Assembly: GCF_032854445.1 (NCBI RefSeq)
Contig: NC_088301.1
Span: 42,093,116 to 42,157,115, forward strand
Origin: Liolophura sinensis
Taxonomy: Eukaryota; Mollusca; Polyplacophora; Chitonida; Chitonidae
Direction of reading: 5' to 3'
Length of the DNA: 64,000 nt
Part shown: piece after piece, positions 7,901 through 58,000 of the stretch
Position numbering within the stretch: position 1 is the first letter of the stretch
Layout: the number at the start of each line of letters is the position of its first letter
The notes under the pieces: model-generated
What the model was told of the DNA's origin: nothing
Databases searched by the model: none
What the model saw: the letters and a program-made list of their open reading frames with translations, nothing else
Made by a program: the position numbers and the translations under genes

Positions 7901-8226
7901 CGACCCAATACCGGCCATATTCATATTGTGTGGAGGAAGGTGTACATGTTGTGAGCGAAATGCATATAGGCTTTAAGTCTATTTATGCCAAATGATTACC
8001 CATTTTCATTCCAAATGAACTTTTTGGTAGTTTGGGCAATAATGCTTCCAAAGGAATCGATGTAACATGAAAAACTCGACACTGTAGCTGTACCTTGCAA
8101 CGAGCTGTCAAATCTGTCATCCCTGATAAGTTATACCCCGTTATCCTGATCTGACAAGTATCCAAATCTTCCAGTGCTGCCGGTGCCATTTGCTGCCAGT
8201 GCTGCACAAAGCAGTATATATCGACA

Positions 8227-11200
8227 ATGTATCGTGCATTGTATGATTTCAGTGCACAGCAGAAAGGTTGTTTGTCTTTCAAATCTGGCGACTTATTTAC
8301 AGTAGTAGGGGATTCATCTGGCGACTGGATAAAAGTAGAAAATGGAAAGGGACACATTGGGCTAGTTCCATACAACTATGTTGCACGAGTGGTGGCTCAA
8401 GGGAACGTAAGTTTATCGCAGAATGAGTGAAGCATGTCTTCAAGTGACCATTTCACAATGCACATATGACATGAGGGCGACCTGCCCATAAGTAACAGAT
8501 AAAACATTTAGTGCTCAAGGCAACAGTATGCATGCATGCATACATCACTGTACTGTAGTAGTTTTGTTAACATAATAACACTATATCATATATTTGCATT
8601 CTGAAATGTCACAGCCATGCTTCATGCACACCATCTATTCTAACTACATGTATGTAATGGTTAATTGATCATTGATGTTACCGGTATGTAACTAATAACA
8701 TTGAGACTTCAATACAAAAGGTGTCTGAATGGACATACATTGTAGTATAATGTACATGTTGGTGCATGTATATTCTGATGTTCGCAGATGTGCAGAATTA
8801 TGTTCTACTTTTTTTATGTTTCAGGGGGTGGTTGATGATGTCTTGAAGTCAATTGATCGAGCAATAGAAGGTATTCATAATGCAGCTGCACAAACTGGGA
8901 CATATACCAAGGAACAGAGGAAGAATCTAGAGTAAGATGCATGTACATATAGATTGTGGTACTGGTTCATCATAACATTAATTGGTGCTCTGCAGATATT
9001 AGACTTGAAATATTCTGTTTTACAAAATATATCTGTTATGTTTGTAAACTGATGGGTAAATTTTTTATCTGGCTGTTATTTGAACATTTGTCTCTCCATG
9101 CATAGCAAAATATCTAGCCCATGAACCTACCCTTTTGGAGCCAGTTGAACACTTTATTATCTGAGTTATATGATTCAAGTCTCCCATAACCCATAACCAA
9201 GCCTTAATCACTCCATCCCAGAAGTGTCTTGCCTTTTTGATACATATTCATAAATATAGTGGTGAAACAAGCCCAGATGTTTTAAGTCTTATAGTGTCCC
9301 CCTCCCATCCCCAGTTAAAACACTACTGGCTTTAGCATTGATGTCCATCTTTAATCCTCAAATTGAAATAGGTTCAGCTTTTCCTTACATCTTGGCTTCT
9401 ATTTATTAAACAAGTTAAAACTGTGCTTGTTAGGTTGTTAAGAAATTGTTGTGGGTATGGTGTTCTACACAAAGAATCAGTGTACAAATTTTAAATTTTC
9501 TAGAGCTATGAATTGCAGTTATGCTTAGAATTTATGAGTTAAGTCTTAAGACATTTGTTGACTCTTGGTCCAGGACCAATTCTTGATCTCCACAACACTT
9601 TTTTATTCTCTCCATGTTTTTTTCTGCGTCAGGAAGAACATAATAAGTTACATTTTGTTTTGTGTTGAAATTGTGATTGACATTTTTATTTTGTTGTTTA
9701 ATAATACAGGGCACTAGTTGAACATAGGCAGAAAGTCTCTGTAGAACAAACTGCTGTAAGATCAGGGCAAACCACTCCTGTGTCACCTCCTAGTGATGTG
9801 CCACCTCAGCCAAAGAGACATGCCCCAACCCTGAATTCACCTATTAGCTCTGACCAACAGCTCAGCCATAAAGAAGGTACAGTATTTACAAAAAAAATAG
9901 AAACAAAAAAAAAAAAAAACAGAAATATACTTTTCAATACATTCATGTAGTGTAGTTCTTACAGTTCTCATAAGTACTTGAGACAGCATTCATTGCAGAA
10001 ATAGAGCTCTCTTCTCAGAAATGTCTGAGTTGTTTAAATGGCCAAAAGAGTGTGCCTAAATAGTGAAGCGGAGGCTTGCTTAAAACTATTTTTGTACTAT
10101 TTTCCTGGAGTGAACATGCCAAAATTAATGATCAAGCTGATGTCACTGTGATTTTGGACATGTTTCCATTTGTTGGAAATTTATATACTTGTTTATCACA
10201 TTTTGAAAACATGGTGTTTTTTTATTTGTAGTAACTTTACATGTTTATTTATCACATTTTTAAGAGATGGCAGAGAAGAGGCGATCCTTTCCAAGGCGAG
10301 AAGCACCTGCTCCTCCTCCTAGAACAACTTCTCAGCTGCAAACACCTCAGGAACCTGAGGCACCAACGCTGATGATGGACACACCCGAGGATGTAACATC
10401 AGATCCACTCCAGTCCGACATACCAGAGGATATGGTAGTTGTTCAAAGACCTGTCACAGTGAGTGCACAAAAGCTTTCAGCAGTCTCTCAGTCTGAGACT
10501 TCTACCTGTGCCCTCCAGGAAAGACATGTCCCAGAAGCTGAGGTGCATGACTTAGGTAGACCAGTGTTTGATACAGACTTTCCCAGCCCTCCTGAGGACA
10601 TATCCACGGACTTTCCTCATCCCCCAGATTTCTTGTCCGACGCTAGCGTACCAGGAAGTTTGCCAGAAGACACTATGCCAGTACACATCTATACAGGAGA
10701 CAGTTGCACTACAGCAGTACATGCACAGCCTGCTGTGAATGCCATGAGTAGTCAGACAGAATCAGGTGATGCTCATGTCCCTTTAAGCCTGGGGCATGAC
10801 CTGCTTGAGGATGTCCGTCGGAACACAGGTGTTAGTTACGACAAAACCATAGTTGCTGTGGAGACTGTGGTGAAACTGATCAGCTTCCATGTGCCAAGCA
10901 CAAAACACATCATGGAGAAGGTGTCACAAGTTATATACCAGGTGGGTTGTGCTGTAGTCTTGTTTTGGGTGTGATTGGCATTGTGTTGGGCAGAGATGAA
11001 ATACTTGACTGTGAGTTAATGTGATATTTTACAAGTACTGTCCATTGCTTGTCTGTTCTATACTGTTTATGTATTTATTTGATTAATGGCGGCCAGCATT
11101 ATGGTGGGAGAAAACCCAGCAGAGCCCAGATAAACCCACAACCGTCCGCTGGTGTGTTGGTTACCTGATTAAAACCTCTAGCTTTAAAATACAGAAGTTG

Positions 11201-14200
11201 ATAAAATCTGTGAAATTACTGTTGACTGATTTGTGAATTGGATTACTATGCTTCTCTTTTATGACGTGGCACCAGCAAGTGTGGTAATCCTTAGCCTTTC
11301 AAGCACTGAAAAATTTGTTTGTATGAACACAAATTGATTGTTATTAATTGTTGCAGGTTCAGGAGGGTGATGTGGTGCTGGCAGGTTGCCATGACGCTGA
11401 GAGACTGCAGATCCTCTTTTCAGAACTCCGTGACTGCAAGGATGACTCACAGCAGCGCAGCTGGGCTTTGTACGAAGATGAAAGCATCATACTTCACCAT
11501 CTGCAGGAAATGATCTCCATCTTGGTGAGAATTGATTTTTAAGTGAGCTCTGCATGAGTATATTTAGATGTAGTTTTGCTTCATTCAAAGACCTACAGAT
11601 TCCTAAACAAATTCTCAATTAAAAAGCTGAAAAAGAAGAAAAAAAGCATGTAGATCTCCATTTGTTTGGTTGTTTGATATAAGTTTTATGTGGATATCGA
11701 AATACAACTGTACACCTCGAAGTTGTACTATTTTTGAGATGTGTGAAATATGTGTGTGTGTAGACAGACAACATGCAAAATAGAATAAGTGAAGTTTCGT
11801 TAATATACATTTTCTTGTATAATTTTGTATAATTTGTGTATGAGTTTTTTTATGATTTTATATCCATTTTAGGAAAATGCCAACCCAAAATTATGTAGGA
11901 AGTGTATCTCAGCTGATAGTTATGAACCCATCCACACCCTTGTGCAGTATTACCAAATGGTGAGTTCTGAGAGAAAGCACATGAACCTTTGAAACTAAAA
12001 AATTTTTGTACTTTTTTTTTTTTTTTTGCTTCAATATCTTCAAAGCTTCTGACCAATGTGAGTCTTTGCCTTTTATTTGGCAGTCTCTAGCATGCTAGTG
12101 CAGCACAATGACTCACGAGCCTCTCATCAATGCTGCCACTTTAAGTTCTAATCCAGCTCATGCTGGATTCCTCTGTGGTTGCTCGTGGGAAGGGAAGCAA
12201 CCTGTGCATGGTCATGGGTTTCCCCCTAGGGCTCTGCTGGATTTACTCCCACCAAAATGCTGGTTACCATGGTGTGACTGAGATATTCTTGAGTACAACG
12301 TAAAACACCAGCCAGATAAATAAGTAAATAAATATTCCTAGCCAAACTTTCTGAAGGATCACATTTCAATCTTTTCAGTTTTCTGAAGTGTACATATCAA
12401 GCTAAAAGTATTTAATATTTAATTAGTTGACAGCAGTTTTCTTTATCAGTGAACTTTTAATTTATTTGTAACTAATTAATATAATGCTTTTTACCTTCCC
12501 ATTGTACTTACAGGAGACCAGATCTAGTATTAGACTTACAATGCTAAAAGGATTTGCAGTGTTGTGTAATTTGGATTCCCAAGCGGTCACTGCTCTTTTA
12601 TATTCTGTGTTACCACTGGAGTTGTGTAGGGATCTACAGAGCAATATCACTGGTGAGGAGACAACTGAAGGGTCCCAATTAAGACATAGTGGACTACAGT
12701 TTTGTTCAGAAAGAGGCCACAGAACATGAAATCTGTGTTAATGCTATAATATAGATGTGGGGGCACGTATTGATTGAGTTGTTAAGTTTGTCAACTGCTA
12801 GGACACATGAAGTACAGATTCAATCTCTGCCCTGGACAGGGAATTCATGGATTTCATGGTAACAATATGCAGTCAGCAGAGCACTTTGAAGACTACCAAT
12901 ATGGTGTGCATATATATCGGTCGCTAGACAACAGGTTTTGTTCCAGTAGGTATATTCTGAATTACCCCCTTGTTACAAGACAGTGACTATGACATAACGC
13001 GAGATTAGTTTTTGAGGCGTGAAACTAAGAGAAGTGGGACCTTGCTTACTAAAGTATGCACTATGTAGGTTATGTCACGACAATTACAAATATTTTCTAG
13101 ACAACAGAATGTAAAAAAAAAAGCATAATATCAGTCCATGAAAGTCGCAGAAATGTAGAGAGAGCTGTTTCAAAGCTAGGCCTTCAATTAGCTTATGCAG
13201 CTTTAACTTCAATACTAGCCATTAGCCATTTTCTGAGGTCCCACCTAACCACAGCTTACTCCTACAAACACACCTCTAAAATGGGAGAGTGACCTCAAGG
13301 GCAGTAAATTGTGGATCTTAATTTGGTGCTGGCCTATTTTCCTGACTCATAAATCTGACAGATAACATATAAATAAAAAATTCTTGAGAGCTGCAAAAAA
13401 TAACAATCTATTAATCAGTCAGTCGGTCGATCGAAGGGTTGATCTGGCAGACTGGTGATGTACATGATGATGTGATTGGGTGGGTGGTCCTGGGTGGTAT
13501 CATCAGTTTGATGCTTCTGTGAAAACGCCTTTGCAGCAAACCTTACTACTGTTGTATTCAATGAAATAATGTTAAAGTCAATACTAAATCTGTACTTTTG
13601 TGAGGCATCATGTTTCTTATTACCACATCTGAGTTACACCATAATAAAAGTATTGTCTCATACAACACTGCAAACTCACGCCTGTATGAGATGAAACTAA
13701 ATAACATGTAAATAGAATATTTGTTAAGCTATTGTTAAAAAGGCCTTGATTTTTGATGGTAGTGTTTGTTGGAGAAATGTGTCGGGTTCCTACACAGAAT
13801 TGCTGCTATTACTTCTGCCCCTTAATTTTTACAGATGCAGAGAGGACATGTGCCTCAGCAAGAGTGTTGACAATGATCCTTTCTATGGGGGAAGATATAC
13901 CAGTCCACCATTATGGTAGGTGTGTTGTTGACACATGATGTAACACATCTGATAAAAGACCATGTTTCAAAGTACACCAGTTCAGTGTTTAATCCACCCA
14001 CCTAACCACAAACATCACCTCAAAAAGAATTTCATATTTGACTGAAACTACTTTCACAAGGCTAGTTTTTACTGGCCTGAGTCGTGAACTGGAAACTACA
14101 GCAAAATTGTTTTTAGCCAAGACCTTAATTTCAGATTTTGACCATTCATGAACATCACAATGTGCTTGTGGTACACGCACATGAAGTATAAAAGCAAACC

Positions 14201-15853
14201 TGTGCTGGATAGAAATTGAAGAGTCATTGTTGTGTTAAACAGTTATGTCTTGCTTTAGTTTTTTGAACATGTCTCCCTTTTTTTTTTTTATTATCTTTCA
14301 TCTTGCCTCTGTGACAATATATTCTCAAGATCTTTAAGTGATGAGAGAATAGATGCTGTCCAAAGTCATTTGATTGCATGTTATGTCACCAGAATCTTGG
14401 GGCATAGTTAGTGGCTCACTGTTAGTCTTATGTCTTTACTCAGCAGCGATGTGACGTTAAACCATAATCATTTATTTATTCTTACACAACTTTGTTAAAG
14501 TCAGGATAAGAGTATAATCGTGTTTCAGTATGCATTGATGCTGCAACAAGATAAGAAGTCTGGAAGTTTTAGGGTCTACAGTCTGTCTGCCCAGCCAGAG
14601 TCTTACACCACTGTTACAATGCCAGTGTTGAATGACATTTTGGCCGTAATACTGGAATATGGTTGAAAGATAGCTTATGAGAATATATTTGTGATTATTC
14701 AATTTACATATAAGGCATTTATGAGTAATGAAATAGTTCACGATTTGTGTTTCAGTTCATCTGAACAAAGATTTTGTTTCCTTCCTGCTGGATTATATTG
14801 AGGCACCTCCTGCTAAGGACACATTGGAGGAAATCCCTAATTATTTCGTGAACTTGATCTTGGCGTTTAACCTTCACTTTTGTGATTTGCAAAAAAACTC
14901 TGTGATGGTTGTTCTCGGGGAGCGTGGAACAGCTACAGTGTTTACGGAAAAACTCATGTTACTGGTCAATAGAGGAGGTGAGGAATTAGACTGTCATACA
15001 TTTGAATATTTGTTTGTTATTGTTTTTAATTTTGTTTCCAAACTTGGTAAAAGTATTGTACTTGCATGAGGGTAATTTAGTTTATGGATGGTCTAAGTAA
15101 GACTTTTGGCATGCAGGAAGCCATCACACCCTTTGCAGAGCGCCTGACAAACTTTCAACCTAAAGTGTAATTGCGAATTATAATACGTGTAGCTATAAAC
15201 TTCTTCACGAAATGAGTATACATGTTGGACTAATGGCCTGGTTAATATTTCATCATACACCACTTTATTATAATAGTGTATTTATCAGTATTGCTTTTGT
15301 GAAGAAGTCAGACTTACACTTGTATAGTTGTTGTTCTAATCTGTTTCAGATGACCCTGTACGAATGCTACCTCACCATCCTAAGCCGGCAAACGCTCTCC
15401 TCAAATTCCTAATGGATATGTATGGTTCCCCGGTGACCTCTGACCTGTTGTACACAAATGATGCAATGGTTCTGATTGACATCATCATTCGAGAGCTGGC
15501 TGACCTTCCAGCAGGCGATCAGGTGAGTATATTATGGAGGTAAGGTGTCTTACCAACCAATTTCCTATTCTGTTTTTGTTTTATCCCAGAGTAATGCCTG
15601 GGTATGTGTTATCTTGTAACGCTACTCATTCTATCTTTTATTTGTTGTCCTATTACAGGCTCGAACAGAAAACCTGAGGCTGGTACGTTTGATTCTGACA
15701 AACTCACCTTACAGAGAAAGAAAGTATCGACTTGACGATTTACGGCAATGCCTGTTGAACATCGTTAAGGAAGAAGAAGTACCTGACTGTGACGCAAATG
15801 AGGTTCAGAAGATTTTCCGGAGTCTCCCTTACCTCTTTCCGTCATGCTGCTAA
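8227..15853 (+). CDS. NCKIPSD: NCK-interacting protein with SH3 domain (SPIN90/DIP/WISH)
   Basis: SPIN90 binds NCK, diaphanous formins and Arp2/3 and promotes unbranched actin nucleation. Eleven exons join without a phase break: 8227-8406, 8825-8931, 9710-9876, 10265-10941, 11357-11524, 11873-11959, 12514-12652, 13835-13915, 14756-14977, 15350-15522 and 15659-15853. They give 731 residues (human about 722). The SH3 domain fills exon 1 (MYRALYDFSAQQ..., residues 1-58). A helix (VVDDVLKSIDRAIEGIHNAA) follows, as in human. Exon 4 holds a disordered segment with an SH3-ligand-like APAPPPR near residue 165. The leucine-rich C-terminal domain begins near LLEDVRRNTG and includes the near-invariant QQRSWALYEDE (exon 5), LDSQAVTALLYSVLPLELCRD (exon 7) and MILSMGEDIPVHHY (exon 8). 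The ATG has no competing upstream start in the exon and matches the human N-terminus. Nothing looks broken. Confidence 0.95.
11085..11155 (-). repeat. SINE S1 fragment
   Basis: The reverse-strand body of the main SINE (GGCGGCCAGCATTATGGTGGGA, then AAACCCA blocks) lies in NCKIPSD intron 4. Head and tail are largely lost. Confidence 0.75.
12075..12342 (+). repeat. SINE S1, nearly full length, diverged
   Basis: It runs from a decayed tRNA-like head (TCTAGCATGCTAGTGCAGCAC) through the CCAGCTCATGCTGG block and GGTTTCCCCC to GAGTACAACGTAAAACACCAG and an AAAT tail. It lies in NCKIPSD intron 6. Many substitutions suggest an older insertion than the copy at 4480. Confidence 0.88.
14400..14482 (+). 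repeat. 3' end of a second SINE family (S2-like)
   Basis: The segment ends in GACGTTAAACCATAATCATTTATTT, the same terminal pattern (ACGTTAGACCATAACAACC) as the tRNA-like SINE at 49537. It lies in NCKIPSD intron 8. Confidence 0.45.
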
Positions 15854-22619: not shown

Positions 22620-25600
22620 CTAAGCCATGGAGACTCTGGGTTTGTCCTGATCCGTATCATGTGTAGAAGATGCTAGTTCAGCTACAGCAGCCTCATGAGC
22701 AACTTTCATTTCTTGCCTCTTCACCTCTGTGTACAGGCCTGAGCCCACCAGCACTACAATGTTACTGGTCCACCACAGGGTGGACTTAATGTGAGAATAG
22801 TATATACAGGCAATCACAGTTTGTGCACATGCCTTGGCTGTCCCAGATATGTTGTGGGTCAAAGGGGATGTAACTTTGATCTGGAGGCCAGAAACAAAGC
22901 CAATGGCAAACCCAAAGCAGCCAGTGATAGTCATAACCATCCAGAAGTATCTGCTGCCCAGCAAGGGAAACGACCAAACAGTGGTTACCTCTTGAAACAA
23001 TAGCATTAGGGGAATGAACAATACAGTAGCATTGACATTGTTGTAGAGTGTCAGCTTCCACACGTTGTTGTCAACTTTTGGCAAAACTTTCTTGGTGTAT
23101 ATAGCATTTAAGGCCACACAAGCACTCGCAGATATTCCGTACACAACGCCCAATTTTGAAAGATGACCTTTAGGAAAAAAGCAAATACAGTATCAGCTAA
23201 GTTTCCCTTATTAAGCCATAAAAAAAAGTCATTAATAAACAAAGTCTGTCATATTATTAGTTATTACAGGTAGTAAGCCAGTATGATTAATGAATCCTTT
23301 GTCATACCTACACTGTAATTATTGCAACCATCATTACTAACAGAGCACAGATGCTACATACAGTACCACTCAGGCTAAAAGTCAATTGTTTACCGCTCAA
23401 ATCGCACACCCAGACACTGAATAACGCTCCACTGACGCGTGACAAATCCTCTGCTGAGCTGTGTTGGAGACCTACTGAGGCGCACAGGATTATCGTTGAA
23501 GGTGTCAATATAGACTAATCATGGCTAGTTTGCAAGTCAAGGTGCAGTCCCCGTGTATTCAGCTATGTGGATAAATAATAGCGGTGAAAAGCGAAAAGTA
23601 GGCTACTTCCCGTTGACGGGCATGTATAGGCCTGACTGTAGCTATAGGTGTTTTTAACCAGTAACCTGAAATGGCTCGTGTATTTTTTTTTTTTTTTTTG
23701 ATTGAACTGGTGTGTTAATGAAGTTTTCAAGGTTAGCCTACATTATTGATTGTCTACAGACATAATGGCTGACCAAAATATCACCTGGGAAGTGATACAG
23801 AAGAGGTGATTTACAGAGAAACAGCGAATCCAGCCCTAGGAGTTTGAGAGAATAATTCGTTTCTATTGTTCAAGATTTTCAAAACCATACAGTATGTGTC
23901 AGTTAATAAAGTTCAACACTTTTGAGTATTATTTACTTACTGCAATACAACATGCCTACTGTTCTTCAAGGTTGGCAGAGCCTCACAGCCAGACACTAGG
24001 ACTGCATGAGTTCTTCTCCCAAGTGTCTATGTGAAACTTCTGACTAGGTATTTTAATAAAGCCTACAATAGTCTGCTTTGCTGTTGCTGCTAACACCCAT
24101 GATATTTTTTACACAAATATAGTACACATCAAAACATTAGCATCCAAACCAGAAAAAACAAAAACTTGTAAACATATGTTATCAAGTTGACAAACAAAAT
24201 TTGATATTAGATTTCATCTGGGTGTTGATTCAAATAAGTAGTGTTAACGATAAATTAACAGATTGGAATTATTTCCATGAAGCCATTTTGTAGTTAAATA
24301 GAGTCCGCAAAGAAAGTATTTAAGGAAGGCTACACTGTGCCCGGTAAGACAAAAGTTCAAATAAAATGTATTATTGCAAATGGAAAAATATTTCTGTGAC
24401 AAAAATATTCCTTCATGCCTTTGCTCTGTGGGTGCTTTTCCAGCATGGTTTGGTACAAACTACAAATTCTCAACAACCTTATATTATACAGACAAAATTT
24501 AACTTGTCCTGTATCATGTTTTTCATCTTTGTTCATCTTTGTATTCTGTAAGAAAAGGTCACTTTTTGCCACTTCGCTAGTGACCAGTAAGGCATCGATG
24601 TACAAAATAACATCACGAGAGCTCTACTGAAATACTCAGACTATATGAAAAGCTGAAATTATAGAAATCCAATGGATACAAGACCAGTGATTCAAAAATA
24701 GGCATTTTCCTATGCAGTAATGTTGGGAGGACCGTTTTCGTCACCCACCCCATTTATTACTAATGAGATCACGTGGTCTTAGCTTCTGATCCATCATACA
24801 GAATGTGAAATTCGTATTGAAATACCGGTTTGTTGTTGTTGCACGGCATGTCTGCGTCAAAGTTTCCATTTTGTCTGCTAAATTACCGAGGGGCATATAA
24901 TTTATCACTGGCAAATGACTCCCGCAAGAAAGAAAACCTTCTACGGAAGAAACGAAAGATATTTCTCCACTTTTAAGGGAGATGAAGAATGAGCTAATTT
25001 TAGCAGTTGTGGTGATCTAGTATGAATCACGCATGGATTCAATCACTTCTTTTAAAGAAGACTGCTACGCTGCAATCAAAAAGACACCAATCAGATATTT
25101 TACCTCAGTTTCATGTATGGTGTTAAGTCTTTCAATAATTCTTTTAAATCATTGTAATGAAGACCTAAATATTCAGTCATCAATTTTCCACAGCCAGCGC
25201 GTAGGGATAACAATGCTCAATCACGTGTGAGTGAATAGTCAATGTGGACGGATCACTGACTCTGCAGGTGACTGTCTGTGCGGGACCTCTACAGGCACTC
25301 TACAAACTCTCTAAAAGACCTCTAGGATAGCACTAATCTGCTGCCTAGTTTTGACTTTTAGCCTGAGCTGTACTGTAGTCACCTATTGCTGAAAAAGCAT
25401 TGTAAGCTTCTGCTAATATTAGTATGTCACATACAACTTTCTGTCCAAATATGTGGCCACATGCCTTCCATAAGTATATATATTTACCACCGACAAGGAT
25501 TACAGTCTACAAGCTTGACAAAAAACGTTTCACAGTCACGTACCTGTGCCTCCCTCTTGGTCAACCCCTAAAAGAAATCCTGCTATTATGAGGGCACAGC

Positions 25601-34189: not shown

Positions 34190-34365
34190 TTTGATGTTTT
34201 ATGAGGTACTGGAGAATATTTCATATATACGAGTGTGTCCAGCATTATGGTGGGAGGAAACAGAATAGAAAAGCAGAATTGGACGAACTCACAGTGACCG
34301 CATTGGTGAGATGCTCTTGAGTGACTGTGCGGCGCTAGCACAATCTGCCACGGAAGCCCCTCAAC
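34190..34365 (-). repeat. SINE S1 with central deletion
   Basis: Reverse-strand copy running from a TTTATTTGATGTTTTATGAG tail through GAATATTTCATATATACGAG and CAGCATTATGGTGGGAGGAA to a head (GCGCTAGCACAATCTGCCAC, then GGAAGCCCC). The middle part present in the full copy at 4480 is missing. Confidence 0.8.
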
Positions 34366-34439: not shown

Positions 34440-34545
34440 CTGACCAAGTTACCCAGGGTGCTGGGGCTTACCAGCTGGGGATTTGAACCAGCAATCTCTG
34501 GGTTACAAGTCCACATTTCTACCACTACACTATAAAATGGTAGAT
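34440..34545 (-). repeat. tRNA-like SINE fragment (second family)
   Basis: Read on the minus strand it gives GTAGTGGTAGAAATGTGGAC, then a B-box-like GCTGGTTCAAATCCCC, so it is tRNA-derived and distinct from family S1. Confidence 0.55.
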
Positions 34546-34856
34546 CTAGCAGGGATGTAGATAGCCCCTGTGTATAACAATGTCAAATCATCAACGCACC
34601 AGAATCATGATCTGGATAAAATGAATGTAACTACTGTTAAGGTAAACAGCAAAGACATGAATTCAGATTTAACTTCTTTACTTCTGAGCACAAATACATG
34701 TATAAATATGAAGCACAATCTCTCACACACTCATATAACTAAACTGTAACTCTAAAAACATTACAGCACTCCTCCATGTCCACAAGAAATACAGGAGGAC
34801 ATTGCAAGAACCTACACAAAAATATTTACATTAATACTAAAGAAAGTTGCACACTG

Positions 34857-36062
34857 TCAGGTTTTCTTCTGTTTCCTCTTCATTTCTTCTGCAACTAGAT
34901 CATTCAAGTCCTGAAATAACACATGGTTATCGGTTCATCACACTACCCCACAAAACACATGTAACCTAGAAACTAGCATACATAGTAAACTACAAATGAG
35001 ATGATTCCCCTCCTTGGACAAACATTCTTTTAATATGGATTCACATATCTTGTTGGACTGTCATTTACAGTGCACTTATTGAACTGATGGTTTAAACTGT
35101 ATTGAGGAATTTTTCACTATATCACAAAGAAGGAATACCACCAGGATCCTGACAGGACTCCAGACTTAAACCAGAAGCTGCTGTCGCACCAACCAGAGCC
35201 AAAGTTTATCTCACGACATCATTGGTTAACTGCTAATGAACAGCCATAGGAGCAACCCTTCATCCAAAGAGAAGAAGTTGGACAAGTGACCGATTCATTA
35301 CATGGTTACACTTTACACCTGTTTTATTTTCTACACCAAGATGTTTGAATGAAACTAAATCCCTGTAAACCCTGTCTTGTTGTTCTATGGATTCTATATA
35401 TTGATGAAGTAATTGTTCATCCATTTGATCAGTCTTTTGGGCAGCACTTGAGTTTACTTGAGTTACACAATATGCTTTAAAGCTGCTGTCACCTGGTGTT
35501 TGCCAGATTAATTCAGGACTTTCCGCAGTACCATGGAAAGTTACTGAGGAATATACAGAACACTGACCAGTACTGTCATTCTTCATTTATTTATTTGATT
35601 GACATTCTACTTTGAATATTTTCACTTACACGACGGCAGCGACGGCTGTGCTAACCCCTTGGCCACGGAGGCCCCCTGTCATTTTTCAACCTTGTCGCAT
35701 GTTTGCAAGATGTTTTATTCCAGATTATTGTTTTGACTGATAAAATTATAGTTTTTGCGAAGCCCTGAAACAGGCCAATCCAACCTATGTAGCTTATTAA
35801 CACTTAAAAATGTGCATAAATTCATATGCGAAAATGTTGAGGAATTAAGTACCAGCTCTGGGACAGGTGAGAATTAAATAGCAAAACATCTAACCAGTGG
35901 CTAGCTATTATCAGTCTTCATTTGCAATAACACATGCAAATTACATGCACTTACATCCAAAGGTTTGTAGAAATAATGAACAGTTTGAGCTCCTGCAAAC
36001 ATGGACAAAGAGGCAGCCACTACGAATTTAATGTACTTCGGCCATGATATACCTGCAGGCAT
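34857..36062 (-). CDS. UQCC6: Complex III assembly microprotein Brawnin (UQCC6)
   Basis: UQCC6 (C12orf73, Brawnin) is a single-pass inner mitochondrial membrane microprotein needed for respiratory complex III assembly. Two minus-strand coding parts join in phase: 35955-36062 (36 codons) and 34857-34910 (17 codons plus stop), giving 53 residues against 71 in human. Residues 1-4, MPAG, match human exactly. The helix IKFVVAASLSMFAGAQTVHY and the following YKP align with human LKMFAASLLAMCAGAEVVHR and YRP. The C-terminus is lysine-rich (EEMKRKQKKT). The first coding exon begins at a splice acceptor at 36084 with a good polypyrimidine tract and a CTAAT branch-like motif, leaving 22 nt of 5' leader before the ATG, so an upstream exon must exist. 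The nearest upstream gene is UQCC5, same strand. The ATG has A at -3. Identity is supported by the divergent TDG neighbour. Confidence 0.85.
35584..35677 (-). repeat. Internally deleted SINE S1 (head joined to tail) with target-site duplication
   Basis: This 94-bp reverse-strand element contains only the tail end (ATTTATTTATTTGATTGAC, TTTCACTTACACGACGGC) fused to the tRNA head (CTAACCCCTTGGCCACGGAG, then GCCCCC). Flanks CTGTCATTCTTCA (35573-35585) and CTGTCATTTTTCA (35676-35688) look like a duplicated target with one mismatch. It lies in the UQCC6 intron. Confidence 0.8.
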
Positions 36063-36084
36063 TCTGGCTTCTCCACTTCTTCTG

Positions 36085-36290
36085 CTGAAACATTGAAAAT
36101 AAATGCATTTGATTAGTTTGTAACGTTGCCTAAGTTATATTTTCAGCCATGAAATTAAGCACTTACTTGCACAGGTAAAAACAAGACTTACAGTAATACC
36201 TCATTCACAGTTATATATATTTGCATTATGCTACTCCAGAAGATACTGGATTATTAATGAAATATACCTTCTGTATCTACTGCTACTTTT
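36085..36290 (-). promoter_or_regulatory. UQCC5-UQCC6 intercistronic segment with splice donors and acceptor
   Basis: The segment lies between the UQCC5 stop (36291) and the UQCC6 exon (from 36084). On the minus strand it holds three possible donors: AAG/GTATAT (GT at 36267-36266) and two perfect GTAAGT sites (GT at 36191-36190 and 36166-36165). All precede the acceptor TTTCAG at 36085. I found no AATAAA or ATTAAA on the minus strand here. The layout fits splicing from the UQCC5 3' UTR into UQCC6. Confidence 0.5.
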
Positions 36291-37520
36291 CTACTCTGTC
36301 AGTTGTTTCAATCGATTCTCAATTTGACGTTTCTTGTACACTTTATCTGAAAATATATAACCATCAAGAAATGATACATCATGATACAATCCTCTTGTTT
36401 CAGGAAAAGAGAGTTAAGATTAAGAGAGAGCTAAGGATATATGATATCGTCCACTTGAAGTTATGGTGAATATCAAGAAATACACTATATATACTAGTAA
36501 TTTGCTCAGAACATTGCTGCACCCAAATCTGGAACTTACATAGGTCCAAGTCAAAATAGCAGAATTGAAGACAATACAACAATGACATTCAAAACTTAAT
36601 AAGATATGAATAGTGGTAATAAATTTGAACAGCAGTAATGAATGCATAATGCCCCAATTACTTTCACACAGGAATATATAGTTTTAGTAGGACTACAATT
36701 AGGGAGTTGAGAAATATCACATCAACATGTATAGAACAAAGTTGTAGGCTCTCAATTTTACCATCCATTCATACAACCTGGACTTTTGAGATAACATGTG
36801 TATATGCCACCTTATGGGAGACAACTGGTCTTTTAGATTTCAATGGAGTGAGCCATGGGAAATGAAACTTCTTACTTGTATGCTGCAGAGAAGGAAAATG
36901 TCACCAAATACAATCTTAATACTAGGTCTGACAATACCCTCATTGAATAAGGCACCCTGTTTTCAGTTTCCCATACTTTAAAACATAATGCAAAGATGGA
37001 AATAATAATGAGACCAGATTTTGCTGTACAAAGCATTCACATCCCATGTCCATTGGATTAAAATGTCTATCAGTTTTCAGAGCTTTGTGTTTATTTCAGA
37101 CAGATGACAGCCTGATTGTGGAGATTGTCTCAGAACTCAATTTCCGGTTGGCACACGCCCCACACTTTCAGATACATCTTCTTCTTCAACCAGATCATAT
37201 ACTCATGTAACAAGTGAATTTCAGACAATTTTCATTACGCTACTGAAATCTAACAACATACATGTATCCAACGGACTACATTTTCCTCCCAGGTAACTAA
37301 ATATATGTAAATGTCAACAATCTAAACATACAATACTACATTCTACTTTGTACATGTACTTACAAAAATTCACTTCTCCAACATGCCAATTAATCATTGA
37401 GAACTCCAAAGCCGCACCAATGACAAAGAATAATGGCAGAAACCTGTACACGCCAAATCTCTCCCGACCAGGCCAGCGTGCGACTAATCTCCTTATTTGT
37501 TTACTTCCTCTGAGCGGCAT
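36291..37520 (-). CDS. UQCC5: Complex III assembly microprotein SMIM4 (UQCC5)
   Basis: UQCC5 (SMIM4) is a small inner mitochondrial membrane protein that works with UQCC6 and other UQCC factors at an early step of complex III assembly, around cytochrome b. Two minus-strand exons join in phase: 37364-37520 (52 codons plus one base) and 36291-36346 (stop TAG at 36291-36293). The product is 70 residues, the same as human. RFGVYRFLPLFFVIGAALEF (residues 21-40) aligns with human RFGIYRFLPFFFVLGGTMEW, and VGEVNFYKVYKKRQIENR with VGQETFYDVYRRKASERQ. The split Tyr codon (T, then AT) confirms the splice. The N-terminus is basic (MPLRGSKQIRRLVAR) and a single membrane helix follows. The gene lies immediately upstream of UQCC6 on the same strand and is divergent to TDG. 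Confidence 0.93.
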
Positions 37521-38746
37521 TGTTTGTGCTCACTTCATGTCTGTGTCAGCTCCCCTGGGATATAAAGACTGGGAACTGCAAATAAGTATAAAAATGATCT
37601 GATGGACTGTCATAAGTGTAGATGAAACTGCATAAAGTAAAACCAAAACTGTCCGTGCCAAAGACAACACAACATCTTAATTCTTACAGCTGCTTGTATC
37701 ATGCTAAATATTGCTAACAAGCAACAGATAAAACTCCAAATGAAGGTAAACACAATAGGGAACATAAGAATCTTTCCTGACCAAAACTAAAATGCCCTAG
37801 GGTTTCCTCACCGGAACACTTCTTGTGACAAATTAATCACCTCATCTTTCACCTAAATATGGTATATTCTTTTGAATTTCATTCATCCTCTACCTTATCT
37901 CGTCATGGGCCGATGATAATCAACACGCTGCTACGGAATAAAGCTGTTATAAAGGTGAGGTTGCCAAAATTGTAGCATGCTTATATATACGCCATTGGCA
38001 TTTCAGGAATCTTACGAGTTCACGCAGATTGACTCCTGAAATGCAGACTCAGCTTAGTAGTGGAGGTCTGTAATAGTATGTTCACAGGAGACACACAATA
38101 TTTGTCTAAGGTGCGAGGTGGCAGAACTGGCACTACTCTAAGAAAAGTAAATGTAAGGATGTATGCCCCCACTTTTAGAGTAAAGATGGCGTTAAGCATG
38201 ACCAGGATACACCAATGAATCATGATCACACTTTGCGATTTTCTGCATATAACGAGTTTGAAATGGATTTTAAGTGATTGAAAAGATTCATCCTTCCACT
38301 AGAAATTGGTGTGTGATGGAATTTTAGAGTTGATTTAAAGCCCCCCTTTCCCCCATCCCCGCCTCTCCTCATTCCTCCTTCCAATGATTAAAAGTTGAGG
38401 CAGGTATATATCAGAAATTATTATACCTCATAGGGTTATTCTCCGTTTCCACTGGTCGAGAGACGGTAACATGATATTCCGCTAAACATGACGCACCACG
38501 ATCGTGCGGGCCAAGGAATGCTGCCTCACACACACAAAGTATTATCCCACTTTCACAAGGCAATATCCAACAATCTCGTGCTAATATCCAACGATCACGT
38601 GAGTTTATTCCACAGCAGTTATCTCCCTTTGAAAGTTCACTGGCATCTGCTTGTTCGTAAAGTAAGCAACCGGACAGTGGTTATAGCTACCATATCAACA
38701 TAAAAATTTGGCGATTTAAAGCACAACTCGAATAGTTAAAACATAT

Positions 38747-38864
38747 GGTGCATACTGTGGGGTGGGACATCAGCAACTGTCACCTCTCGACAAGTTATAT
38801 TCAACTCGAAATATCACTTCTCTCCAGCTGACAATTCCTGATGTCCCACCCCACAGTATGCACC
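38747..38864. repeat. Perfect 27-bp inverted repeat with 64-bp spacer
   Basis: The left arm, 38747-38773 (GGTGCATACTGTGGGGTGGG, then ACATCAG), is an exact reverse complement of the right arm, 38838-38864. Pairing stops abruptly at both ends. The repeat lies between divergent UQCC5 and TDG. Confidence 0.95.
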
Positions 38865-40059
38865 CTCTCTATAATGTTGAAAATATACCTCATTCACTTT
38901 TAATTAATTTATTTGTCAAACACCGGTCACACGTGTTTGCATTTGTCGGACTACTGGTACCACTGACCAACACTCGAGATTTCCCCTGGCCTTACGCTAC
39001 ACACCAGTGTCAGTGCTGTCATTTGTACTGTACTTTGTACTGATACCCACCCAGGAGCAGTCGATGCGTGCCTCTGTCAACACTCCACATGGTCTGTTGC
39101 AACAACCACACATGTGCTCGGCAGCGCCACCTACAATCTTCAAGCAAAGCCGCAGGCGGTATCCCAAAGCAATTACAATTGGACAAGGATTTCGGTTCAG
39201 GGCCAATGAAATGGCTTGTTTCAAGCTTCGTGGCTGACATAACTGTTGTTGTAGGGAGCTGTAGGTTGGCCTGATCATGACGGATTGTCGGACTCCAATT
39301 TTTTTCCACGCTTAGCAGAAGCCAGAAAAGAACAAGATCACTCGCATGGTAGAGAGCACTAGTCTTCGAAGCTTCACATAGGTATATAATCGGTTTCAAA
39401 CGTGGCACAGTCCGCCCAGCGTGTTGTCCATAAATATGGGGCAAGTCTAAATCTGCACCCTTCCCCTTTTGCGGTTCGCAGACAAAAGAACGACTACTGC
39501 ATCTGCGCCATGTGTGGGTTGAAGTACTTATCCCGCCGGTAAATTTGATAAATTTTTTGAATGAAAGTTGTTAAAAAGTTTGATAAAGTAAACAGAATTT
39601 CGTGTTGAGGAAACTGATCACCATCTTAAAATTTCTGTAAATTCTTGCGAAAAGGAACATTGTCAGAGGGTTCAAAACCATGAATGAATGAAAGTTGAAA
39701 CTCACTTTGAGATCACTGATCAGTCACAGGTTCCGTTAGAGTGTAAGATATGGTTTCAGAGAAAGCAAATGCTGTTTGACATACAACAAGTTTGTACGAT
39801 TAGATGATGTCATTGGGAAAAAAGTTGTTCATAAAACTTAGGCCTATCCTTTACAGTCCATAGACTACCTGTATGCACAGGCACATCTCCATGCATTTGT
39901 ATCAGCTGTCTTTGTGAGTTCTTAATACCTGCAGAAACCATGATTCCCATATTTTGAGAATGTGCAAAGATTTACGGAGCCATGCCAAACTACTATGTTC
40001 TACCTAAAGTAGAATTTTTCAACTGACACATTTTTCTTTATCCTCATTTTTTTTTTATC

Positions 40060-51809: not shown

Positions 51810-52035
51810 TTGAGGCTCTCCTGGCCCACCTAGCAGCCTCATTTACATATTAACCTTTTGAATATTGTGTATTTCATTATGTAAGAATTGATTTCAAAAT
51901 ATTCATTGGACGTCAAACCACTTTAAAGCTGACATGAGAGAGGATAACATTTCTGTTCCAGGATTAAACAAACAAGAATTTATACTGGACTACCGGTATA
52001 AACTTACTTACACCTGAGGTACAAGAGAATTAAAC

Positions 52036-55000
52036 ATGCCTTGCAAAAGACGCAAGCGTAAGCTCCCAGTGCCAGAGGATTTGGGTCACGGTTCTCCTGG
52101 CAAAGTTTGTGTCAAATCTCAGAACCTTGATGCACAGAGATCAGAGGCCAAAGAGGGGAGCAGCAACAGTACATCTGAGGATGATATGTTTGCTGTTTTG
52201 ATGCGCATGGAGGGGCCAGGTGTTGCGAGAGAGGGGAGCAGTGCCATGGATTGGAATGGTGACTCTAGTGAAGAGGAGTGTGAATGGGAAGAGGTGCCAG
52301 GTTGGTTAAGTTATAATAACTAATGTTAAAAAAAGGTGTGAAATTTTTGTTGTTAACATATTGTGGTAATGCAAGAATTATGAACAAGGGGAGATGACTT
52401 ACTAAACTGAAATACAGTAGAGGTATACAGAGGCCTAGTATATATACTTAATGACCAGTCAAATTTTGTTACATGTTTTCTCTTTTTTTTGGAGAAATTC
52501 AGATTACCAGTGTTTGTACGAATGTTAACAGTACAATCTGTCAGGTCCTAAGTTCCATATGTTCTTGTAGACCATCCTTTACTAAGCACTGAGAAGTCCC
52601 AGTTGCCATCAGGCTCAGTTAAGATACGACTTGAGGTTCCTGACATTATGAAGAAGAAACGGTAAACAAAAACTTTTCTTTATTATAAATTGAACAAAAA
52701 TGTAATATACTGTATGTTACCTAAGTTGAAGCCTGTAAAAATGTGCGTTCAGTAGCACATAAGGGCATCTAACATAGAGTTTGGACGCCAACAATAGTTT
52801 TTCTGACAGAAACCATTGTATTTCACCTAAAGTTTGCTATGTAAAATGCACTTTAAAGAGCACATAAAGGCCTTCAAATGATACTTTTGATGGCAACACT
52901 TGAATTTTTCTGTTAAGAAAAGTCGAAGGATGCTAGTGCATTAATCAGTTTTCTGTCATTTTGTTGAGATGGGTGAGGTCAGGGAATTGGGTGTAATGAA
53001 ACCTCAGTAAATACTATTCATTTTTGGCTGCCATTGCCATTTTTTGTTGTCTACATGTTTTGCAAGGGATATAAAACTTAACGTTGACGCAACATTTCTT
53101 TTGAGCCCATTTGACCTGTGTGACAAAGCACTGATTCATATATTTTTCTTTTCCTTTTTGTGTTAAGCATATCCCATGCCTCTGTATTTTAGTGATGGAG
53201 TGTGGCACACTTCTAGTTAATGACTATTTATGATGTAGGACATAAGAAAAAAAAACATGAAAATAAATGTTGTACTTACAAGAGAGTTTTTCAGAACATT
53301 TTAACCATAACTAAGTGTTGTTGTTTCCTTTCCAATAACATTTCATATTTCCAGAAAACGAGATGCTTCATGGAGGGAAAAATATTATTCTCAACTTCTC
53401 AATCGCTACCTGAAAAATCGCCAGATCTCCCTGCATAAGGTACAAGATTACATAGAAGTGGAGCTTTCCTGTTTTGTTTTTACATGTGTTTATTCCATGT
53501 GTATGTAAAGAAATCACAATTAATCTTGGGATTAATTCTGTAGTGGAATGTTACATTCTGGTCTTTTAAGTGCAAGGTGAGAATCCAATGGAAAGGTATA
53601 TTCACATATATAGTACTAGTATGTGAAAAATGGCATTGAACACCCATGAATTAATCAATAAAATCTGTTATTCAGGTGCACCTGCTCTGCCTCTTGGCTC
53701 ACGGATTACATTGCGTCCATCTGTGCAATAGCCCCGTAATAAGAGCCCTGGCTCTGTCTTTGGAACCATGTGACATTCCCAGGAAGCGTGTCCGCTTGGT
53801 GGAACTCCCAACTCTGACAAAACTGACCAAGTACTTTTTTGGATTGATAGTGATTGACCCTGAGCAGCATAAATCACCTGTAAATGAGGTAAATACGACC
53901 TTGAGAAAGAACATGCAAGCTTTGGAAGAGTAACTCATTGCCACCAAGGTAAAAAGAGACACTTTGCCATCAGTTTCAACTGCATATGTGGACAATCAAA
54001 GTGCTGTGATAAGTATGGAAGTGCATCTGAAATTAGCAGGTTGAAACCTGGACGTGAGAAGAGAATCCATGATAAAACCATAAAAAAATATCCATCCACA
54101 AGAACGGAAGAGTGGATTTCCACTAAATAAAACATACCTACTTGCTGTGGGTAGTAGTTGTCGTCTTCTGCCGGTGCAGTAGTTTGTGGTTGGGGTTTAA
54201 ATTGTCACACTTTGTAAAGTGTCAGGCCTTCATCACAATATGGACTTTACTCTTTCAGGATACACTTGTGAGGAAGTTCTGTACAAAAGTGGCCACAGAA
54301 AAAGAATTTGTTTTGGTGAGTTTGATTAATTGGTGTGATTTTTGTTTGACAAGATTATTGTAAAATTGTACAGATCAAATTAGCTTTACCTTATAATGTA
54401 ATTCATTGATGTAAAATGTGTAATGAAATTTACTTTGAAAGTGTGGAAAATCCTGAGAAGACTTCAGCTTCAAAAGTCTTTTCATACAGTTAAATAACCT
54501 GATAGCAGATCCTTTTTTTGTTTTTGTTTTTTTCTGATTTAAATCTCACTCCATGGAAATATCACAGGGTAATTTGTCTGTTATTTTGTATAATGTTAAT
54601 CTCTGCTTCTCTGTTTCAGCTTTTCTTTGCCTTTCTATCCATGCTAGGATTTGACACTCGACTTATAATGTCACTTGTCCCATTATCTCCGAAAGTACCT
54701 TTGCAGGTAACTAATGTCACAGAATAACTCCTGAGCAGTTACCTGGATTTGTATAACTATTACAAGTATTAGTATATCAAACTGAAATTTCCATTGAATG
54801 ATCTTGATACATTAGTGTATTAGCCAGTATATTCTGAGCTGTACTATAAGTGAAATATTCTTGAGCATTGTGTAGAATACCAGTCAATAAATAAATAAAT
54901 GTATAGGCTGGAATCAGGTTCATGCTAAATTCTTTGGCCTTAGGTGGGAAAAACTCCTGCCAATATACATGTTGCTTGCCCAAGGAGGGTGGGTTTCATT

Positions 55001-58000
55001 GCCCAGTCTCTGTCCACCAACCCATAACATATTGGCAGTATATTGAGCTGGGGGTGTAGGGCGACATTAAAAAAGAGGCATCGGATAGGTAACAATAGTG
55101 TGAAGGAGGGTAATACATGTGTATATTTAGGAATAAAGGAAGACAAATTTTGGTGTAAGTGAAGGATTGGATTGTAAAAAAATCCTGGCACTTTTATAAA
55201 ATACACTTGAACCTAGGGTTTGCTGATAAGAGAAAGGATTGTCCTTTGGTTTCATGTACCAGTAATCCACATAACATCCAGTTCAGTTGCAAAGAATCGA
55301 AAGCTTGGACATGATAATGTATTAGAAAAATCCCAGATGACATTATTTATGTTATCTGGGATTGGTCTGTTTTGATAGGATAGTTTTGACTAGCACTGTA
55401 TGTGGAAAGTATAACACATGTATGTACATTCCAAAAGGTTCTTGTAATTCTGCATTTTATTTTCTTGGCCTCAGAAAGTGGCCAGTGGTGAAGGACAGAA
55501 TTCTGGCAAAGAGAAGAAGAAAGCTGAGAAGACTCGGGTAAAAGACCATGCAGACTCAGCCATAGCTTGTAGCAGCAAAGATACCTCTGGTGGCAAGTCA
55601 TTGCATTCATCAAAGTCTGCTAAAGGGAAACTTTCTAAAGCAGCGAGAAGTGAGGATAATCATGATTCAAGCAGAAAACAGTCTAAATATTTTAAGGAAA
55701 GACATAATCTCAAGAAAAAAGGGAGTGAAAAGAAAGCTAAAGGACAGACTGCTGAGAAGATGGAAAAAATCCCAAAAGTATTGAAAAGTGGAGGAGAAAA
55801 GGAATCTCATTCTGGTTCTCGCTCATCAGAACCTCGGCGGTCTTCTCGTAATTTTCGAAGTAAAACGAGAGAATGTGGTGACAGCAATTATTCCCATGAA
55901 AAGACAAAAACTGAAAGATCTGCAAGGAAAGGAAAGGCAAACAAAGAACAGACAATGGAGCCAGAAGAGATTTTGTTGAGGTAAGTCTTCTAAATTCTGC
56001 CATGAAATTCTTCTCTTATTTTTGTTTTCCTGCTAGTGTATGTGTCTATAATAAAGAAATCTGGGTATGTTTTTGCAATTTTTTTTTTTTTTTTTTTCTT
56101 TTTTGTACCTCAAAATATACATCATCATCAGTGTGTCTGTATACATAAATGTGTAATGGTTTGCATAATGGATTATACATGTATGTTTGTTTTATTTTTT
56201 TTCACATGGATTTGTCTGTAGAAACGCATGACAATTTACTTCATTGGCGGTCACTGTAAATGTGATGCATCATATATTGGGTCTGTATAAATTTGTGATG
56301 CCATGTATCCTCAGTTCTTCTGACGATTTTGAGGAAGAACCTGCCAAGTCAAGGACTCCTACTTACAGTTTGAAGAAGAAGTACAAGGGAAAAAATGTGC
56401 CCAGGAAGATACTGTCTTCTGAGTCCTCAGAAGAAAGCCTTATGCAGACAGAGGATGAGCAAATAACTCAAGGTCAGTCACATTTAACAACTGTATGTGG
56501 AAATGATCAACAAATTTTGAAGTTTTTTAGTTTTTACCCCTCAGCCAATATTGGCTCAATGATTTCCAGCGACCTTGACCTTTTTTCAAGGTCATTGGGG
56601 TCATATAGGTTAAATTTTATGAAAGGCTTGCAAATATGATGTCTGCAGAGAGGTTTATGCCAAATTCACAAAACTTACACCAAATTTACACTTTGTCTTG
56701 AGGAAGAACCGTATTGATCTTCAATGACATTGACCTTTTTCTTCAAGGTCATTGAAGTCATTTAGGTTAAATTTTCTAAAAGGCTTGCAAACATGATATT
56801 TCTAGAGAGGTTTATGCCAAATTCAAGAAACTTAAAGCACACATACACTTTGACTCTTTTTTTCAGTGACCTTGATTTTTTCTTCTAGGTAATTGGGGTC
56901 ATTAAAGTTAAATTTTATAAAGGCTTGTAAACATGCTAGAAATGAGACACCTAAATTTAAGGGTGATGTAAAGGGATATGTTTTGTGTAGGGGCCGACAC
57001 TGTTTTGTGACCTATAGTGGGTGGAAATCGTCTTCAACAATGTTATTCAGTCACATTTATAGCAATAACGTCAGACACAAATATACAGAATATCGAATGT
57101 AATTTAATGATTAATATTCTAATTAGCACTATATTCCCATGTTAAAATCAACGAAACAATATTATTTAGAACAGTCCATATATATGAAAATTATCTGAAT
57201 GACTTTTCATTCAAATGTGATCAGTCCTGATACTTTTAGAATGAAGAAAACATAATAATATGTAAAATGTGTGAGCCCTTTGTCTTTACATGACAATGTG
57301 GTTATATGTAACTGAAAGTAGTTCTATCGGCAGTCAGATGGTTAAGATAATTGTATGGGTTTGGGATTCCCATACACTTTGGTGGAAGGTGACGTCCCTC
57401 AGAGGACAAAGAAGTTGCATAGGTTGCATAAGATAAAGGGGAATAGAATCATGGGTGAGCGAATGAGAGGATCAGTCCATCACTCTGGCTTTTGTAGAGG
57501 TGATCAAAATTTTCATCTCCTGACTGAAAATCCAGGGGAACGATTTGGCGATCTTCTAGTTCGTCCTTATGTCGAGGCCTGCTTTGCCAATTATAATTGT
57601 ATATTTTGAATCTTGGTTGAAGTGCAAGAACAATGTCTCCTGGGGGAAGAACATATTTATTATAAATTTATGGTCAGTGAGATTTTGTTGGATCTGATAC
57701 AAATAGTGATATCACATATTCTTGACTTCCTCTTCTGTCAAATGTGGGAAGGTCTGCCAGCAGCCTGAGGAAGACTGTTGGATTTCCCTAGGCTCTGCCC
57801 AGCTTTTTCCCCACCATAAAGATGGTTTATCTTATTGAAATGTTCTTGAGTATGGTGTAAACATCAGCTGTTGGAGTTTGTAAGCAAAATTTGTTAAATA
57901 ATGTAAGTTTATTTATGAAAAAAGTCATTCAAATGTTGTCTCACAACTTTTTTTTTTCCTTCAGGAACATATTTATGGGTGGAGGTCTACTTGGAAACTG

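Follow-up and report, generated by a model that had tools for sequence, protein, structure and literature searches.

The sloth1 and sloth2 genes of Drosophila (CG32736 and CG42308), orthologues of SMIM4 and C12orf73, are carried on one bicistronic transcript in which the two open reading frames (ORFs) are spaced by 5 nt (Bosch et al. 2022, eLife 11:e82709, PMC9681215). A similar bicistronic architecture is reported there for a choanoflagellate, a sea squirt and a lamprey, and in jawed vertebrates the orthologues are placed on different chromosomes. The legend of Figure 1C in the same paper leaves room for adjacent, separate transcripts. In fly reporters, translation of the downstream ORF rose when that of sloth1 was impaired and fell when sloth1 was given an optimal start context, which Bosch et al. 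take as favouring leaky scanning (PMC9681215). In humans, the proteins SMIM4 and C12ORF73 join UQCC1 and UQCC2 in acting on newly synthesized cytochrome b, and each of the two declines when the other is lost (PMC8719881). A literature search for the pairing beyond Bosch et al. yielded reviews and papers on other subjects, and the main text of PMC9681215 contains no word beginning with annelid or mollus.

The window, by which the whole analysed stretch of 64,000 nucleotides from the chiton Liolophura sinensis is meant, contains a further instance of the sloth1/sloth2 pair, in a looser and intron-bearing layout. UQCC5 (SMIM4, the sloth1 orthologue) is followed directly by UQCC6 (Brawnin/C12orf73, the sloth2 orthologue), head to tail on the minus strand. 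UQCC5 encodes a product of 70 amino acids in two coding exons (37520-36291, minus strand). Exon 1 (37520-37364) was assigned by its translation and by Pfam family PF15114, and exon 2 (36346-36291), preceded by a phase-1 intron and ending in a TAG stop codon at 36293-36291, by its translation. The match to PF15114 was near full length (residues 6-67 of 70), with E=3.3e-33 and 113.8 bits at a cut-off of 27. A search for relatives of UQCC5 gave 196 matches, and among the best 120 of these the top-scoring named relative was Octopus vulgaris (64% identity), the other named ones being mostly arthropods. The conserved NFY of UQCC5 reads NFCK at the intron site in seven of 20 fetched matches, a hand-picked and not a random set, and NFCK is what the phase-1 intron would give if retained unspliced; judged from these sequences, the intron seems to be old. 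Acceptor-like sites 5' of the UQCC5 ATG would start exons at 37575 and 37554. A two-codon upstream ORF, ATG-AAG-TGA (37538-37530, minus strand), has its stop codon 9 nt from the UQCC5 ATG and would be part of the mRNA provided that neither the 5' end nor the final leader acceptor falls 3' of 37538.

The product of UQCC6 is 53 amino acids long and is likewise encoded in two coding exons (36062-34857, minus strand). The first exon begins at 36084 after the acceptor TTTCAG, which is followed by CAG and so forms a NAGNAG site with an alternative exon start at 36081; its 5' part (36084-36063) places the acceptor 22 nt ahead of the ATG. Coding exon 1 (36062-35955, residues 1-36) was assigned by translation and by Pfam family PF14990, which matched residues 1-41 of 53 with E=2.8e-18 and 65.7 bits (cut-off 27), and coding exon 2 (34910-34857, TGA stop codon at 34859-34857) by translation. 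With a four-sequence alignment as query, 147 matches were obtained, of which the best 120 were listed. Both genes gave a single match at E<=0.001 across the 609,464,459-base assembly, on the same contig and at this place; the matched part was exon 1 in each case, and only the best candidates were scored. Downstream of UQCC6, the first poly(A)-like hexamer among those scanned was AGTAAA at 34682, and the first AATAAA was found at 34191. Within the UQCC6 intron, at about 35630-35680 (minus strand), a stretch starting GGGGGCCTCCGTGGCCAAGGGGTTAGC resembles, judged by eye, the head of a tRNA-derived SINE; ARAGORN called no tRNA within the window. The only repeat found within 34500-38200 was one weak inverted pair of 26 nt (73% complementary). 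A sequence search of solved structures returned no match up to E=10. No relatives with DNA context were confirmed in collections of viral and prokaryotic contigs, a result that says nothing about animals.

The gap between the UQCC5 stop codon and the UQCC6 exon (36290-36085, minus strand) is 206 nt long with a GC content of 30%, and the distance from stop to start is 228 nt in the DNA. Three sequences resembling splice donors had been listed in the initial annotation and were recovered, GTATAT preceded by AAG at 36267 and GTAAGT at 36191 and 36166, as were the end of UQCC5 at 36291, the UQCC6 exon at 36084 with its ATG 22 nt inside, and the 45-nt spacer without ATG that splicing from the first donor would leave. 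AATAAA and ATTAAA are indeed absent from the gap, as had been pointed out, but the absence was rejected as support for one transcript and is uninformative, because 68.8% of 206-nt minus-strand stretches, taken in 10-nt steps through the window, also lack both. Donor scores were calculated with an approximate donor matrix. They were 1.08 for 36267, 2.33 for 36191, 4.85 for 36166 (CAA followed by GTAAGT) and -0.59 for a further site at 36199, and the donors of the coding introns scored 0.26 (UQCC5, 37363) and 3.72 (UQCC6, 35954). By this matrix the first gap donor is not favoured, yet it stays eligible since the coding-intron donor of UQCC5 scores lower still. Donors 36191 and 36166 each leave two ATGs ahead of the UQCC6 start, one of which would extend UQCC6 in frame at its N-terminus, and the unspliced gap has five ATGs. 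An intron between the two cistrons is probable.

In an mRNA spliced from the first donor, the two ORFs share one frame and only the UQCC5 TAG and 15 codons lie between them. Read-through of this TAG would yield a UQCC5-UQCC6 fusion protein. Such read-through was considered and set aside: about one in six random 15-codon spacers would allow it by our estimate, and the two fly ORFs are in different frames (PMC9681215).

The likeness to the fly locus (PMC9681215) is that of an orthologous pair, with a SMIM4-like ORF placed 5' and a C12orf73-like ORF placed 3' on one strand, both of them short. The spacing differs, as 5 nt in the fly compare with 228 nt in chiton DNA, or 45 nt with the first donor. 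The frames differ likewise, since the chiton ORFs would come to share one after first-donor splicing. In the chiton, moreover, both ORFs are interrupted by an intron and a further intron probably separates them, and the fly sloth1 start is non-optimal whereas that of chiton UQCC5 has an A at -3. The choanoflagellate, sea squirt and lamprey loci resemble the chiton locus in their similar bicistronic architecture, a comparison made through the statement in PMC9681215. The human SMIM4 and C12orf73 genes, on chromosomes 3 and 12, encode orthologous proteins with a joint role in early complex III assembly (PMC8719881), but the genes are unlinked (PMC9681215). Both microproteins had been placed in this assembly step by the initial annotation. 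It has been published as a hypothesis that sloth1 and sloth2 are distant paralogues. A profile-profile comparison of UQCC5 (20 sequences) with UQCC6 (21 sequences) gave a probability of 0.2% over 5 columns; this miss is weak evidence, because the UQCC5 set was shallow and two of its rows contained apparent intron read-through.

We consider it likely, with a probability of about 0.6, that UQCC5 and UQCC6 share a dicistronic mRNA, because the pairing is published as bicistronic (PMC9681215) and because 13 of 17 insects have the two genes on contigs of equal length. A single promoter 5' of UQCC5 would produce one pre-mRNA with both genes, the small intercistronic intron would be spliced out, and both microproteins would be translated from the mature mRNA, UQCC6 being reached by ribosomes that bypass the UQCC5 start (leaky scanning) or that scan on once a short ORF has been translated. 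Two factors of early complex III assembly that depend on each other would thus be supplied together. Because SMIM4 and C12ORF73 each fall without the other (PMC8719881), joint supply from one transcript would be a sensible, if unproven, advantage. In favour of the dicistronic mRNA are the Pfam identities, the published pair in the same order and strand, the equal-length contigs, a CpG peak, the acceptor 22 nt 5' of the UQCC6 ATG and the donors in the gap. Against it are the low score of the first donor by the approximate matrix, the two ATGs that the better donors put 5' of UQCC6, the A at -3 of UQCC5, the lack of depletion of out-of-frame ATGs, the four of 17 species with unequal contigs, and the possibility that the CpG peak belongs to another gene. 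The shared transcript put forward in the initial annotation is thus plausible and agrees with PMC9681215; the accompanying statement that no report of the pairing was known does not hold, as it is in print under the names sloth1/sloth2, and the appeal to reinitiation is weakly founded, as discussed below.

The linkage in other species was taken from the best 120 of 196 UQCC5 matches and the best 120 of 147 UQCC6 matches, in which 17 species, all insects, were named in both. The length given for each cluster is that of its longest contig. Equal lengths were found for Anastrepha ludens, Ceratitis capitata, Diprion similis, Zaprionus bogoriensis, Tribolium madens, Condylostylus longicornis, Musca autumnalis, M. 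domestica, Drosophila obscura, D. kikkawai, D. bipectinata, D. eugracilis and D. suzukii. For D. bipectinata a second UQCC5 entry was on a contig of another length (241050), and the matching entry was used. Matches across species names were left uncounted, namely 115228827 (Rhagoletis zephyria and R. pomonella) and 23222241 (D. simulans and a cluster named D. mauritiana). Equal lengths point to a shared contig and not to adjacency, and sharing by chance is not rare in whole-chromosome assemblies. The lengths were unequal in Anabrus simplex, D. busckii, D. serrata and Glossina fuscipes, possibly due to different assemblies in the latter three. In Anabrus simplex, UQCC5 was on a contig of 172002535 and UQCC6 on one of 104395000, and the pair may have been separated within insects. 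Short unnamed contigs were also tried as linkage evidence, with contigs above about 6,000 bases excluded and rows with several sources assigned to one. Four exact length matches, three of them from the same source, were found between 46 UQCC5 and 63 UQCC6 contigs. These were set aside because seven of 120 shifted controls (same-source mean 0.78) also reached three same-source matches.

The observed/expected CpG ratio of the window is 0.365, with a median of 0.33 for 600-nt stretches and a few peaks. One CpG-rich stretch (38300-39700, taken on the minus strand; 0.62-0.85 in 600-nt stretches) begins about 0.8 kb 5' of the UQCC5 ATG, and no peak was found ahead of UQCC6, where 600-nt stretches with centres at 36.0-36.6 kb gave ratios of 0.18-0.36 and 400-nt stretches gave 0.31-0.45. 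This distribution fits one promoter for both genes, as indirect evidence, and makes 38300-39700 a candidate shared promoter that could instead serve another gene. A CpG peak can mark a gene start in this window, since a peak of 0.81-0.93 at about 7.5-7.8 kb directly precedes a gene with an SH3 domain that starts near 8227; to other peaks, for example at 29.4-30.0 kb, no gene was assigned here. Gene-body CpG was rejected as an indication that the two genes form a single transcription unit, as the ratio of 0.297 for 34501-37500 is reached by 35% of 3-kb stretches.

Other coding regions were observed in the window. On the plus strand at 8155-15069, an exon with an SH3 domain (8155-8430), whose start codon lies near 8227, and an exon with the SPIN90 leucine-rich domain (14737-15069) are probably part of one NCKIPSD/SPIN90 gene. 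ORFs at 52018-56639 (plus strand) were taken by eye to resemble XPC, and two pieces of them tested against Pfam gave no match; a CpG-rich peak lies 5' of them at 50.1-50.7 kb. At 22620-23192 (minus strand) a sugar-phosphate transporter-like exon scored 25.6 bits against PF03151, under the curated cut-off of 30.

Other transcript arrangements must be weighed against the dicistronic mRNA. One promoter could yield two monocistronic mRNAs if a non-coding first exon 5' of UQCC5 were joined either to the UQCC5 exon or to the acceptor at 36084. The closeness of that acceptor to the UQCC6 ATG, the acceptor-like sites that would begin exons at 37575 and 37554, and the CpG-rich stretch at least about 0.8 kb 5' of the UQCC5 ATG would all suit this arrangement, which we nevertheless find unlikely, as no such first exon could be placed and the fly mRNA carries both ORFs (PMC9681215). 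Quite unlikely, too, is that the genes are separately transcribed neighbours, with a UQCC6 promoter in the UQCC5 intron or in the gap and with the adjacency as an inherited relic. The different chromosomes in jawed vertebrates and the Figure 1C legend (PMC9681215) agree with separate transcription, as do the unequal Anabrus contigs, but the CpG profile has no peak before UQCC6, and the acceptor at 36084, if used, requires a further exon upstream.

Operons resolved by spliced-leader trans-splicing usually show little distance between the genes and an acceptor immediately 5' of the downstream ATG. The UQCC5-UQCC6 gap and the acceptor at 36084 have this anatomy. Within the window, however, there was no match to any Rfam family at its gathering score, and trans-splicing and operons are reported to be lacking from the annelid Dimorphilus and, by citation, from other annelids (PMC7854359). 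Such an operon is highly improbable here.

If UQCC5 and UQCC6 share a dicistronic mRNA, the way in which UQCC6 is translated has to be considered. Once an ORF of 70 codons has been translated, reinitiation at a start 45 nt further on is usually poor. The proposal in the initial annotation that the 45-nt spacer suits reinitiation is weakly founded because of the length of the UQCC5 ORF, because the donor needed is not the best-scoring one by the approximate matrix, and because the fly reporters favour leaky scanning (PMC9681215). Heavy leaky scanning is not obvious either, since the UQCC5 start has an A at -3. The UQCC5 and UQCC6 starts are alike, with A at -3 and C at +4, and the start consensus of the host itself may differ. 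In the first-donor mRNA, one in-frame and one out-of-frame ATG lie between the two starts. Depletion of out-of-frame ATGs in the UQCC5 ORF, tried as a sign of leaky scanning, was discarded: one was observed against 1.1 expected from base composition (P 0.70) or 1.4 from codon permutation (P 0.55). It is very doubtful that the two-codon upstream ORF sets the ratio of UQCC5 to UQCC6, with its ribosomes resuming too late for UQCC5 and initiating at UQCC6. If true, this would be an ATF4-like switch replacing the non-optimal first start of the fly, and the proportion in which the two assembly factors of complex III are made would respond to eIF2 phosphorylation.

The UQCC5-UQCC6 pairing itself is already known from the fruit fly, sea squirt, lamprey and choanoflagellate (PMC9681215). 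New at the chiton locus are the probable intercistronic intron, the shared frame after first-donor splicing, the CpG peak 5' of UQCC5 alone and the two-codon upstream ORF. The presence of the same order in another animal genome fits an old gene pair that was kept for joint supply and was split in jawed vertebrates. The looser layout with its introns suggests that the pairing does not need the 5-nt spacing and the non-optimal first start of the fly, so lineages may differ in how they translate the second ORF.
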